Positions 43,471 to 47,751 of a stretch of DNA of 64,000 nucleotides are shown piece after piece; the stretch's first letter is position 1, and every line of letters begins with the position of its first letter. A program made the position numbers and the translations under genes. The stretch is taken from positions 1 through 64,000 of the forward strand of contig WALV01000065.1 of assembly GCA_015522645.1 (NCBI GenBank), read 5' to 3'. The DNA comes from Candidatus Tiamatella sp. (GTDB lineage Archaea; Thermoproteota; Thermoprotei_A; Sulfolobales; Acidilobaceae). Below the pieces are notes generated by a model, which was given only the letters and a program-made list of their open reading frames with translations, was not told where the DNA came from and did no database searches.

Positions 43471-44144
43471 AGATTGTTGTGAAAATCAGCGGCAAATACT
43501 TCACTCCAATAGAACCTGCATATGCGGAAGAACTTGCAGAGGTACTAAGGGAAATTCGAGGCCGAGGGAACAGAATAGCTGTAGTAGTAGGAGGAGGTAA
43601 AACGGCTAGAGACTATATAAAGCCTTTAAGAGAACTAGGAGTAAATGAAGGTTATCTCGACCTGTTAGGTATAAGGGCCTCTCGACTAAACGCTTATGCA
43701 TTAGCTCTTCTACTCGGAGAACAGGCATACCCGGAAATACCCGGAAGCATCGAAGAATTCCTGGAATACTGGGCTACCGGTAGAATAGTTGTAGTAGGAG
43801 GATTCCAGCCAGGTCAGTCTACAAACGCTGTATCAGCATTAATTGCAGAGGCAATAACCGCTGACACTCTCTATAATATGACCAATGTTGACGGTGTCTA
43901 TACCGATGACCCGAAAAGAAACCCAGATGCAGTTAAACTAGACGAGCTGACTATTTCCGAGTTAAAGAAAATACTGGAAAGGAAAAGTGTGAATGCAGGC
44001 ACATACGAACTCTTCGACAGGCTTTCGCTGGATATAATTGAAAGATCGAAGATAATGACAGTAGTTTTGGACGGATCGAAACCTAGGAATCTAATAAAGC
44101 ACCTAGACGGAGGAAAAATAGGAACGTTAGTCAAGCCTAACTAG
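43467..44144 (+). CDS. pyrH: Uridylate kinase (UMP kinase, archaeal type)
   Basis: A 225-residue amino-acid-kinase-fold enzyme that phosphorylates UMP to UDP. Motifs include the N-terminal VVKISGKYF, the VVVGGGKTARDYI loop, GGFQPGQSTNAVSALIAEA and NVDGVYTDDPKRNPDA. The start is the TTG in the TTGA overlap with the regulator gene, so both are translated from one mRNA. The 3' ends of pyrH and the convergent metallo-beta-lactamase gene overlap by eight bases. Confidence 0.94.
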   Translation: MKIVVKISGKYFTPIEPAYAEELAEVLREIRGRGNRIAVVVGGGKTARDYIKPLRELGVNEGYLDLLGIRASRLNAYALALLLGEQAYPEIPGSIEEFLEYWATGRIVVVGGFQPGQSTNAVSALIAEAITADTLYNMTNVDGVYTDDPKRNPDAVKLDELTISELKKILERKSVNAGTYELFDRLSLDIIERSKIMTVVLDGSKPRNLIKHLDGGKIGTLVKPN

Positions 44145-45033
44145 CTTTAATAGTTTTTACAGCATAATCCATTAGTCCTACTGCTGTAGTATATATGAAG
44201 CTACCTTGTACTATCGGATTACTATTTTCCAGGAAGAACAACGCGTTCTCATCGGCTTCTTTTATCCTCTTCAAGAACTCTTCGGGGCTTGTATGACCAC
44301 TCTTAGCGACTTCCAAGGCAATATCCACCCATAGTTTAATCTGCTTCAAGTGGCCCTCCAGATATTTCACCGCGTCATCATAGATACCGTAGTGCGTTGG
44401 TCCTATGTACTGAGGAGAGAAGCCTATCATTTTCTCAATACTAGATACATAGAAATCCGGCTTGAAGGGTGGAGGGGTGGTAGGTATGAATACCTTTACA
44501 TTATTTGTCCTTAGCACTACTCCAGCAGAGTCACCTGAGAGCATTACGCTTGCCTCTGGAATCCAAATGCTTTGATGATGGCTTGCATGACCCGGTGTAT
44601 GAATAAATTGAAGCGTTAATCCTCCTAGATCTATTTTTCCACCATCCTCAGTTTCGAACACTATGCTTTCCTCGCATGGATCAGGTTGACCGTAAGCATC
44701 GGCAACTGGCCCTAGAACAGTTTTACTCGCACTCCATAGTTTACTGGGGTCAACCAAATGCTTCGCCCCTCTGGGGTGAACGTATATTTTCGCTCCCGGA
44801 TAATCTCTAGCAAGCCTACAGCTTGCCCCGCCATGGTCTAAATGTATGTGAGTTGGTATAATGTAGTCTGGCTTTACATCTAGCTCCTCGAGCTTAACTT
44901 TCAGTTTGTTATAACCATTAATCGGCCCTGGATCAACGACAGCTGTCTTATCTCCTCCTAGAACGATGAAAGCGGAAATAAGCCCCTCCCCGACAGGAGT
45001 CACGTCCACGACTAGGATGCTCTCAAGGTGCAA
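44137..45033 (-). CDS. Metallo-beta-lactamase-fold hydrolase
   Basis: A 298-residue MBL-fold enzyme with a complete dinuclear site: THIHLDHGG (H-x-H-x-D-H), HTPGHASHH, LSGDSAG with the bridging Asp, and the last His in GPTHYG. A C-terminal helical region of about 90 residues follows. The pattern suggests a thioesterase or lactonase-like hydrolase; the substrate is unknown. It starts at TTG 45033 behind GGTGAACCCTG. A paralogue at 46864 has the same architecture but lacks the bridging Asp. Confidence 0.83.
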   Translation of the reverse strand: MHLESILVVDVTPVGEGLISAFIVLGGDKTAVVDPGPINGYNKLKVKLEELDVKPDYIIPTHIHLDHGGASCRLARDYPGAKIYVHPRGAKHLVDPSKLWSASKTVLGPVADAYGQPDPCEESIVFETEDGGKIDLGGLTLQFIHTPGHASHHQSIWIPEASVMLSGDSAGVVLRTNNVKVFIPTTPPPFKPDFYVSSIEKMIGFSPQYIGPTHYGIYDDAVKYLEGHLKQIKLWVDIALEVAKSGHTSPEEFLKRIKEADENALFFLENSNPIVQGSFIYTTAVGLMDYAVKTIKAS

Positions 45034-45077: not shown

Positions 45078-45085
45078 TATAAATA
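45078..45085 (+). promoter_or_regulatory. TATA-like element before the RNA candidate and tRNA-His
   Basis: TATAAATA lies 31 bases before the first paired base of the structured region at 45116, so a transcript would begin near 45105-45110. The same AT-rich spot may also serve the divergent metallo-beta-lactamase gene. Confidence 0.5.
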
Positions 45086-45115
45086 CGCCAAAATCGATAC
45101 AATTAAGATCTGGTT

Positions 45116-45189
45116 GGGGCCCGGTATGAGAACCCTCTGATTCTTGAGGGTTCTATGAATGGGAACCTGGAATCCAGCTACCCGGCCTC
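45116..45189 (+). ncRNA. Candidate structured RNA (three-way junction) before tRNA-His
   Basis: The 74 bases fold into a closed three-way junction. P1 pairs 45116-45126 with 45179-45189 (eleven pairs with one C-C mismatch and one G-U). P2 pairs AGAACCCTC (45129-45137) perfectly with GAGGGTTCT (45146-45154) around an eight-base loop. P3 pairs CTGG (45167-45170) with CCAG (45174-45177). A 12-base single strand lies between P2 and P3. It is G+C richer than its AT-rich upstream flank and lies between a TATA-like box and tRNA-His. It matches no RNA family I know. It could be a leader of the tRNA transcript or an independent RNA. Confidence 0.5.
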
Positions 45190-45199
45190 TAAGAGATAT

Positions 45200-45277
45200 G
45201 GCCCGGGTAGCTCAGCCTGGCAGAGCGCCGGGCTGTGGACCCGGAGGTCCCGGGTTCGAACCCCGGCCCGGGCCCCA
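45200..45277 (+). tRNA. tRNA-His(GTG)
   Basis: The cloverleaf is complete: acceptor GCCCGGG/CCCGGGC, D arm GCTC/GAGC, anticodon stem CCGGG/CCCGG with loop CTGTGGA giving anticodon GTG, and T arm CCGGG-TTCGAAC-CCCGG. An extra G(-1) at 45200 pairs with C73, the His identity element, and CCA is encoded at 45275-45277. There is no intron. A TTTT follows at once. Confidence 0.96.
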
Positions 45278-46863: not shown

Positions 46864-47751
46864 TTGGTATACCTTGATACTGATATTTTCATCCAAATCC
46901 CCCTTGATCCCATCGGGCTTAAAAGTAGCCTGATGGTATATGCATTAAAAACTGATGAGGGATGGATACTGATAGATTCAGGCCCCGAGTCGACTAGCAA
47001 GACTCTTTTATCGGGGCTAATGAGTTATGGCGTTAAACCGGGTAAGGTATTCCTCACGCACATACACTTGGATCACGCAGGCGCAGTCAGTAGCTTATAT
47101 ATGGAATGGAGTAATATAAGGTTCATAGTACATCCAAGGGGGACTCCCCATTTAACTGATCCTTCTAAACTCTGGAGCCAGTCAAGCGAGGTTCTCGGAT
47201 GGCTTGCCCACCTATTCGGGGCTCCCTCTGGAGTACCTGAGAAGGCAATTCAAACAGCACGCGATGGGGAGAAGATAGCGGAAACATTAAAAGTCCTTTA
47301 TACACCTGGGCACGCAAGCCATCATATGAGCCTCTTCGCCGAGGATATGTCCATATTATTCCCTGGAAGTAGCATAGGAATGTTCTTGCCGGTGGGGAAT
47401 ACTAACGTATACATACCGGCATTAACGTATCCCTTAAAACTAGATTTCTACCTTGAAAGTTTAGAGAAGCAATACAGCTTGGAACCCCAGGTCGTGGCGA
47501 TGCCGCACTTCGGTGTGCATGATGCCGGAGAAGTATTTTCAACAGCTAGGAACCAGCTTGACGAGTGGATTAAAACAGCTCAGAAAGCAGTAGATACCGG
47601 TGCATCAACCCCCGAACGTGTGCTTGCTAACATGATCTCGGAATCGAATAATGTTAAGAGGGCATGGGAGTATTCTATAAGGTATGATCCTCTTATGGAG
47701 AAGATCATGTTTGTCATCGCAAAAGGATTGCTAGAGTATTCATCGTCATAA
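46864..47751 (+). CDS. Metallo-beta-lactamase-fold paralogue lacking the bridging Asp
   Basis: A 295-residue MBL-fold protein similar in full length to the one at 44137. It keeps LTHIHLDHAG, YTPGHASHH and the last MPHFGVHD, but the segment equivalent to LSGDSAG reads FPGSSIG, so the Asp that bridges both metals is Ser. It may bind one metal, prefer another substrate, or be catalytically weak. Shared features such as HPRG.PHL.DPSKLW show recent common ancestry. It starts at TTG 46864 behind AGGTGG. The two copies flank the tRNA-His region on opposite strands. Confidence 0.8.
   Translation: MVYLDTDIFIQIPLDPIGLKSSLMVYALKTDEGWILIDSGPESTSKTLLSGLMSYGVKPGKVFLTHIHLDHAGAVSSLYMEWSNIRFIVHPRGTPHLTDPSKLWSQSSEVLGWLAHLFGAPSGVPEKAIQTARDGEKIAETLKVLYTPGHASHHMSLFAEDMSILFPGSSIGMFLPVGNTNVYIPALTYPLKLDFYLESLEKQYSLEPQVVAMPHFGVHDAGEVFSTARNQLDEWIKTAQKAVDTGASTPERVLANMISESNNVKRAWEYSIRYDPLMEKIMFVIAKGLLEYSSS

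Follow-up and report, generated by a model that had tools for sequence, protein, structure and literature searches.

A conserved archaeal tRNA-His leader complementary to both strands of the acceptor stem behind it: a candidate cis-acting switch of tRNA maturation

Introduction

Leaders of tRNA precursors are usually regarded as disposable. Here, we analysed a locus of Candidatus Tiamatella sp. that raises the question of what a structured leader might do for the tRNA behind it: in the window (the whole stretch of 64,000 nt under analysis), a predicted RNA element directly precedes the tRNA-His gene. Long leaders are exceptional among archaeal tRNAs, and promoters were located 30–49 nt upstream in 44 of 46 cases in Thermofilum (PMC3218864). 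We compared the element with tRNA-His leaders of related archaea and found that its conserved strands are antisense to both acceptor strands of the tRNA itself.

Results

The tRNA-His(GUG) gene occupies positions 45201–45277 of the forward strand, on which all parts of the element lie as well; CCA is encoded, as is G-1 at 45200. A first-pass annotation had described a three-way junction at 45116–45189, behind TATAAATA (45078–45085) and about 10 nt ahead of the tRNA. The coordinates agree, with 10 nt between the end of the element and G-1, and the fold was reproduced: P1 (45116–45126 with 45179–45189) is paired at 10/11 positions with one G-U and one C-C mismatch, while P2 has nine pairs (approximately 45129–45137 with 45146–45154) and P3 four (45167–45170 with 45174–45177). 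The isolated 74 nt reach a minimum free energy of −32.3 kcal/mol (z = −2.8), equalled by 0/200 shuffles; since the reverse strand folds equally well, this single-sequence fold is weak evidence alone and the comparative evidence decides. The hairpin element is real and beyond chance, and the static three-way junction is not its conserved feature. P3 (CUGG/CCAG, stem-loop at 45167–45177) is not conserved and is already broken in L003, a sister species of the same genus, so that a fixed junction is not supported. Conserved portions of the window element are 45115–45124, the P2 kink-turn at 45128–45158 and 45178–45187, and its true start is U45115, one base before the start first assigned.

The two outer portions are complementary to the tRNA, a relation absent from the earlier observations. 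The 5′ strand, L5 (UGGGGCCCGG, 45115–45124), is perfectly antisense to the final 10 nt of the tRNA, here called T3 (CCGGGCCCCA, 45268–45277), which comprise the 3′ acceptor strand, C73 and CCA. The 3′ strand, L3 (CUACCCGGCC, 45178–45187), is antisense to T5, i.e. G-1 and nucleotides 1–10 of the tRNA (45200–45210), with one C bulged. T5 can thus pair with L3 or T3, and T3 with T5 or L5. Paralogous metallo-beta-lactamase-fold-like proteins with HIHLDHGGA / HIHLDHAGA motifs flank the tRNA gene (44137–45033, reverse strand; 46864–47751, forward strand); a search for neighbouring proteins in the genome contigs gave a single irrelevant match.

The genome of the window (1.54 Mb, 71 contigs) holds one copy of the element. 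In most genera of its family, f1, a core of the form (U/A)GGGGCCCGG-N3-GA-[hairpin]-NRUGA lies upstream of tRNA-His. A search of 214 genomes of the order with a covariance model of this core gave strong matches (E < 1e-5) in the family of the window only, one per genome and every one directly 5′ of tRNA-His, which speaks against the earlier suggestion of an independent small RNA. We also gathered tRNA-His genes from other families and compared 65 leaders (f1, f4, f7, f8, f9 and f14). The element extends to five families of the order (f1, f4, f7, f8, f9) and to one genome of a different order in the same class (L202, f14), and it is present in full in L202 and in most of these five families. 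L5 occurs without the rest in very short leaders of genus g4 of f1 (L073, L074) and possibly in f6 (L122–L124) and f10 (L139); the L5-like strands of these leaders read GGGCCCG(G), UGGGGCGCCGCC and UGGGGCC and lie close to the predicted transcription start. The L5 antisense is lost while kink-turn and L3 are kept in L108 and L214 (genus g47 of f9), two natural partial knock-outs that are useful to test the model presented below. The element is absent in the f2, f3 and f11 tRNA-His leaders read, one f1 genus (L008, L015, L019, L022, L027) has neither L5 nor L3, and the feature was not found in the intronless tRNA-His leaders fetched from the phylum beyond the class.

Two further observations concern the same gene neighbourhood. 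In L063 and L064 (f2), a canonical-looking C/D box sRNA (UGAUGA...UUGAUGA...CUGA) is located roughly 60–100 nt 5′ of tRNA-His; it is a different kink-turn RNA at the same place, and the tRNA gene there has a TATA box to itself. Moreover, L083, L085, L094 and L095 carry additional tRNA-His 3′ fragments from the anticodon onward, behind which L085 has a tyrosine-recombinase-like reading frame. In the family of these genomes, integrating elements appear to use tRNA-His for attachment.

Are the leader and the tRNA made as one RNA? The TATA box of the window (45078–45085) is the predicted promoter of both. Across the 65 loci, the centre of the TATA box lies at a median of 38 nt 5′ of the L5 core, the upstream TATA match is better than any inside the leader at 62/65 loci, and some leaders, among them that of L017, leave no promoter room between element and tRNA. 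This arrangement suggests that leader and tRNA-His share one transcript starting around 8–12 nt before L5. The view that tRNA-His has an unusually long, structured and conserved leader that is probably co-transcribed is thereby strengthened.

Between L5 and L3 lies a predicted kink-turn hairpin (45128–45158), composed of GA (45128–45129), P2 (in this assignment 45130–45137 with 45146–45153), the bulge UAU (45154–45156) and a second GA (45157–45158). The covariation among relatives by which the first-pass annotation had proposed to judge the element is present in P2: 90% of cells are paired and 17 are changed on both sides, a result equalled by 0/500 shuffles and abolished by sliding. Loop and stem sequences of P2 vary freely among leaders, and most of the 65 leaders keep the motif GA-stem-NRUGA. 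The 3′ motif after P2 is GATGA in 40 leaders, AATGA in 12, GGTGA in 4 and another in 6, according to an automatic assignment that is wrong in some cases (e.g. L029, L090, L092, L138). In its strand order, GA-P2-NRUGA corresponds to a kink-turn that combines tandem G-A pairs with a 3-nt bulge whose last base is U. The first NC pair frequently deviates from Watson-Crick pairing, and some leaders have C-stems of no more than 2 bp; this applies to many in f9, where the kink-turn would be weak. The spacer between the L5 core GGGCC and GA measures 6–12 nt. Judged by these motifs, the hairpin is predicted to belong to the class recognised by L7Ae and may be bound by this protein. In L102–L120 (f9), tRNA-His has an intron after position 37 with a conserved CCCC..GGGG stem holding GAGAUGA, CAAUGAU or GAUGA, which looks like another kink-turn or k-loop, a putative L7Ae site in the same precursor.

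Complementarity between L5 and T3 is perfect over 8–12 nt in the 65 leaders, and shuffled leaders average 4–7. Among the 30 tRNAs of the window genome, the antisense is specific to tRNA-His, with a run of 10 for this tRNA and of at most 6 for the remaining 29. L5 changes with the acceptor, of which three distinct sequences occur among the elements: GCCCGGG (f1, f9) is met by GGG(G)CCCGG, GCCGCCG (f4, f7, f8) by GGG(G)CCGC(CG) and GCCGUGG (L202) by UGGGGCCGU. Runs of L5 against its own acceptor class versus others were 9.0 vs 6.2, 8.4 vs 5.7 and 9.0 vs 5.0–7.6, where GCCCGGG and GCCCGGA are too similar for such a separation of classes. The match continues beyond the acceptor: in 51/65 leaders, L5 contains as many G as T3 has encoded C. 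At the next position, an encoded A is opposite a leader U in 19 of those 51 and an encoded U opposite a leader A in 26, while 6 do not fit. If CCA is part of the gene, L5 extends as far as A76; otherwise, it matches the trailer encoded in the genome, for instance GAAGGGGCCCGG with CCGGGCCCCUUC in L013. As L5 follows the encoded nucleotides or the trailer (e.g. CCCUU) and not the mature CCA, its partner should be the precursor in cis. These sequences point to pairing within the precursor instead of tRNA mimicry or binding of mature tRNA. The first-pass annotation had considered a sensor of tRNA-His, an idea that holds insofar as the leader is antisense to parts of the tRNA behind it and fails with regard to the partner, for which trailer covariation indicates the cis precursor and not circulating mature tRNA.

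L3, located 3′ of the hairpin, complements the 5′ acceptor strand, and outside f1 the complementarity includes nucleotides −1 to −3. In f9, (A)CCCAGGCCAY faces RUGGCCCGGGU (−3 to +8); the corresponding strands are GCGAUGGCCAAU and AUUGGCCGCCGU in f8 and GCGGCCUC and GAGGCCGC in f7, while several f1 genomes combine CUACCCxGGC with GCCxGGGUAG and include U8-A9-G10. Taking one case per genus and five for genus g38 (n = 24), position −3 forms Watson-Crick pairs with L3 in 23/24 cases and with three different pair types (permutation mean 12.5; 0/20,000 permutations reach the observed value). Position −2 pairs with L3 as A:U in f7 and as U:A in f8 and f9. These extensions to −2 and −3 are not explained by the local pairing of P1 (L5:L3). 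Usually, L3 retains one internal mismatch with T5 that also weakens P1, and it is poorly matched in several f1 genera, namely in L013, L017 and L018 as well as in L005, L007, L009, L011 and L012.

We compared the competing folds by constrained folding, in which either the acceptor pairing or L5:T3 was forced at 60 loci at 37 and 85 °C. The swapped fold with L5:T3 was lower in energy at 60/60 loci, by 1–17 kcal/mol at 37 °C and 1–10 kcal/mol at 85 °C. These energies cover secondary structure only; they ignore tRNA tertiary contacts, modifications, proteins and the ionic milieu at high temperature, and most of these factors work in favour of the cloverleaf. In unconstrained folding, the acceptor stem stayed intact with 2% of native leaders at 37 °C and 0% at 80 °C, and with 57% and 52% of shuffled leaders; other tRNAs folded with 90 nt of upstream DNA kept it in 45–55%. 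Native leaders are thus predicted to abolish the acceptor stem of tRNA-His. Folding of the growing transcript at 37 °C formed L5:L3 first (60/65), next L3:T5 (45/65), and ended with L5:T3 in 64/65 cases, together with L3:T5 in 56/65.

Discussion

But, why should a tRNA carry a leader that competes for its own acceptor strands? Building on the computed conservation, covariation, tRNA-His specificity and energetics, we lean with a little better than even confidence towards a cis-acting conformational switch that gates the maturation of tRNA-His, with a step involving L7Ae as a proposal. The gene would be transcribed with a 5′ leader of about 50–110 nt acting in cis on the tRNA. L5 would pair with T3, made up of the 3′ acceptor strand and C73 followed by CCA or trailer. 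L3 would pair with T5, the 5′ acceptor strand, to which outside f1 the nucleotides about the RNase P site (−1 to −3) are added. This gives two mutually exclusive states: L5:L3 with T5:T3, i.e. a leader hairpin next to a normal cloverleaf, or L5:T3 with L3:T5, in which the acceptor strands are swapped and the D, anticodon and T arms are left untouched. According to the predictions, the swapped form is the more stable of the two and is reached by the nascent chain via L5:L3, L3:T5 and finally L5:T3. It would conceal the 3′ end as well as the site of 5′ cleavage, and neither RNase P nor 3′ processing nor HisRS could act on the RNA before it refolds. L7Ae might bind the kink-turn of the leader and tip the RNA towards L5:L3, making maturation conditional on L7Ae/RNase P. 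It is established that L7Ae switches a kink-turn in the leader of its own mRNA (PMC6298567, PMC5539422), and archaeal RNase P contains L7Ae among its subunits (PMC4245976). The pairing itself is strongly supported; we infer the shared transcript, the binding of L7Ae, the effect on processing, the physiological signal and purpose and the direction of control. The more specific version, a swapped-fold trap released by L7Ae as an RNase P subunit that would couple tRNA-His supply to RNase P and ribosome assembly in hyperthermophilic archaea, is a tentative suggestion and rather unlikely to be correct in full.

Other readings have to be weighed against such a switch. An intron of tRNA-Trp guides the modification of its own exons, and the leader could similarly be a cis-acting guide RNP, i.e. 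half a C/D-like (or H/ACA-like) sRNA with antisense strands that direct modification of the acceptor stem of tRNA-His. With an antisense strand on either side, GA in front and RUGA behind, the kink-turn does resemble D′-C′ with two guides, and L7Ae is common to such RNPs (PMC5539422). We nevertheless consider this reading improbable: in the leaders read by eye, neither outer C (RUGAUGA) nor outer D (CUGA) boxes were found outside L5 and L3, no Rfam model of such RNAs matched, and the spacer of 6–12 nt yields no fixed target under the rule of 5 nt upstream of box D. As a C/D methylation guide, the leader would have the fifth nucleotide upstream of the D′-like NNGA facing G70 in f1, a candidate that we rejected as the spacer varies in f7 and f9. 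The H/ACA form fits in strand order, yet its target would have to be contiguous and to contain an unpaired U, whereas T5 and T3 are about 60 nt apart, and no ANA box has a fixed place (the nucleotides after GGCC are ACA, ACG, AUG, AUU or AUA); it was rejected as well. We give little credence to a decoy acceptor stem, in which L5:L3 would imitate T5:T3 for HisRS, RNase P or another acceptor-stem enzyme. L5 and L3 resemble T5 and T3, with a GGCC/GGCC core frequent in P1; beyond the acceptor, however, they complement T3 and T5 rather than copy T5 and T3, as seen from CCA or trailer and from the covariation at −2 and −3, and the internal mismatch of P1 persists.

Archaeal tRNA-sRNA dicistronic precursors exist (PMC3491384), from which an independent small RNA could be released to act in trans on mature tRNA-His or elsewhere. 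This seems hardly probable here, given that the complementarity tracks the encoded trailer (CCCUU) where CCA is not encoded and that no strong copy occurs away from tRNA-His; sensing of mature tRNA in trans was rejected, since L5 follows the encoded trailer. The fragments in L083 and L085, which mark tRNA-His as an apparent integration site, would suit non-functional inverted repeats left by integration at the tRNA gene or kept alike by template switching. Conservation at the RNA level (kink-turn and P2 covariation), the persisting mismatch of L3, the regular TATA spacing and the spread over several families and two orders make this very improbable. The minimum free energy fold of the isolated 74 nt would suit a static three-way junction that senses the status of histidine or tRNA, but P3 is not conserved, the predicted fold changes once the tRNA is present and no ligand-like conserved core exists besides the kink-turn, which leaves the likelihood of such a sensor close to negligible.

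The switch that we favour shares single traits with several known systems. Closest in kind is the autoregulatory leader of archaeal l7ae (PMC6298567, PMC5539422), likewise a 5′-leader kink-turn proposed to switch structure on L7Ae binding; it covers the ribosome-binding site of an mRNA, whereas here the acceptor strands of a tRNA precursor are switched and the role of L7Ae is only proposed. T-box riboswitches also have a leader strand, of the UGG(N) type, that complements a tRNA at its CCA end, but they bind mature tRNA in trans, read the anticodon and precede protein genes, while the leader described here addresses a cis precursor with the tRNA gene downstream, includes several acceptor-stem base pairs and has no visible anticodon contact. 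Archaeal C/D box sRNAs, among them the cis-acting tRNA-Trp intron, place a kink-turn between antisense strands aimed at a tRNA; the leader differs by its lack of outer C/D boxes, its variable spacing and its targeting of both strands of one helix. With archaeal H/ACA sRNAs it shares a kink-turn and the strand order (5′ GA, 3′ RUGA) under an apical stem, without an ANA box in a fixed place or a pseudouridine pocket with a contiguous target. In the dicistronic sRNA-tRNA precursors of Nanoarchaeum (PMC3491384), a structured RNA is co-transcribed with a tRNA, in contrast to the present case not one complementary to the very tRNA that it precedes. A search of the leader against Rfam (4227 models) returned tRNA models only at the gathering cut-off, to which relaxed thresholds add chance matches. 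We found no report of such a tRNA-His leader in open-licence full text, and to our knowledge no conserved tRNA leader is known in which both acceptor strands of the downstream tRNA have an antisense counterpart. In their study of these archaea, which covered unusual tRNAs and the spacing of promoters, Chan et al. (PMC3218864) do not mention tRNA-His.

The leader looks like an undescribed way of controlling how a tRNA is made. Its co-evolution with both acceptor strands in several families and two orders argues for selection for an alternative precursor fold, and such a fold implies a regulated or chaperoned step in the making of one particular tRNA. tRNA-His is special in that G-1, its main identity element, must survive RNase P (PMC10100707). 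The finding therefore opens a testable link between leader structure, the choice of the RNase P site and tRNA identity.
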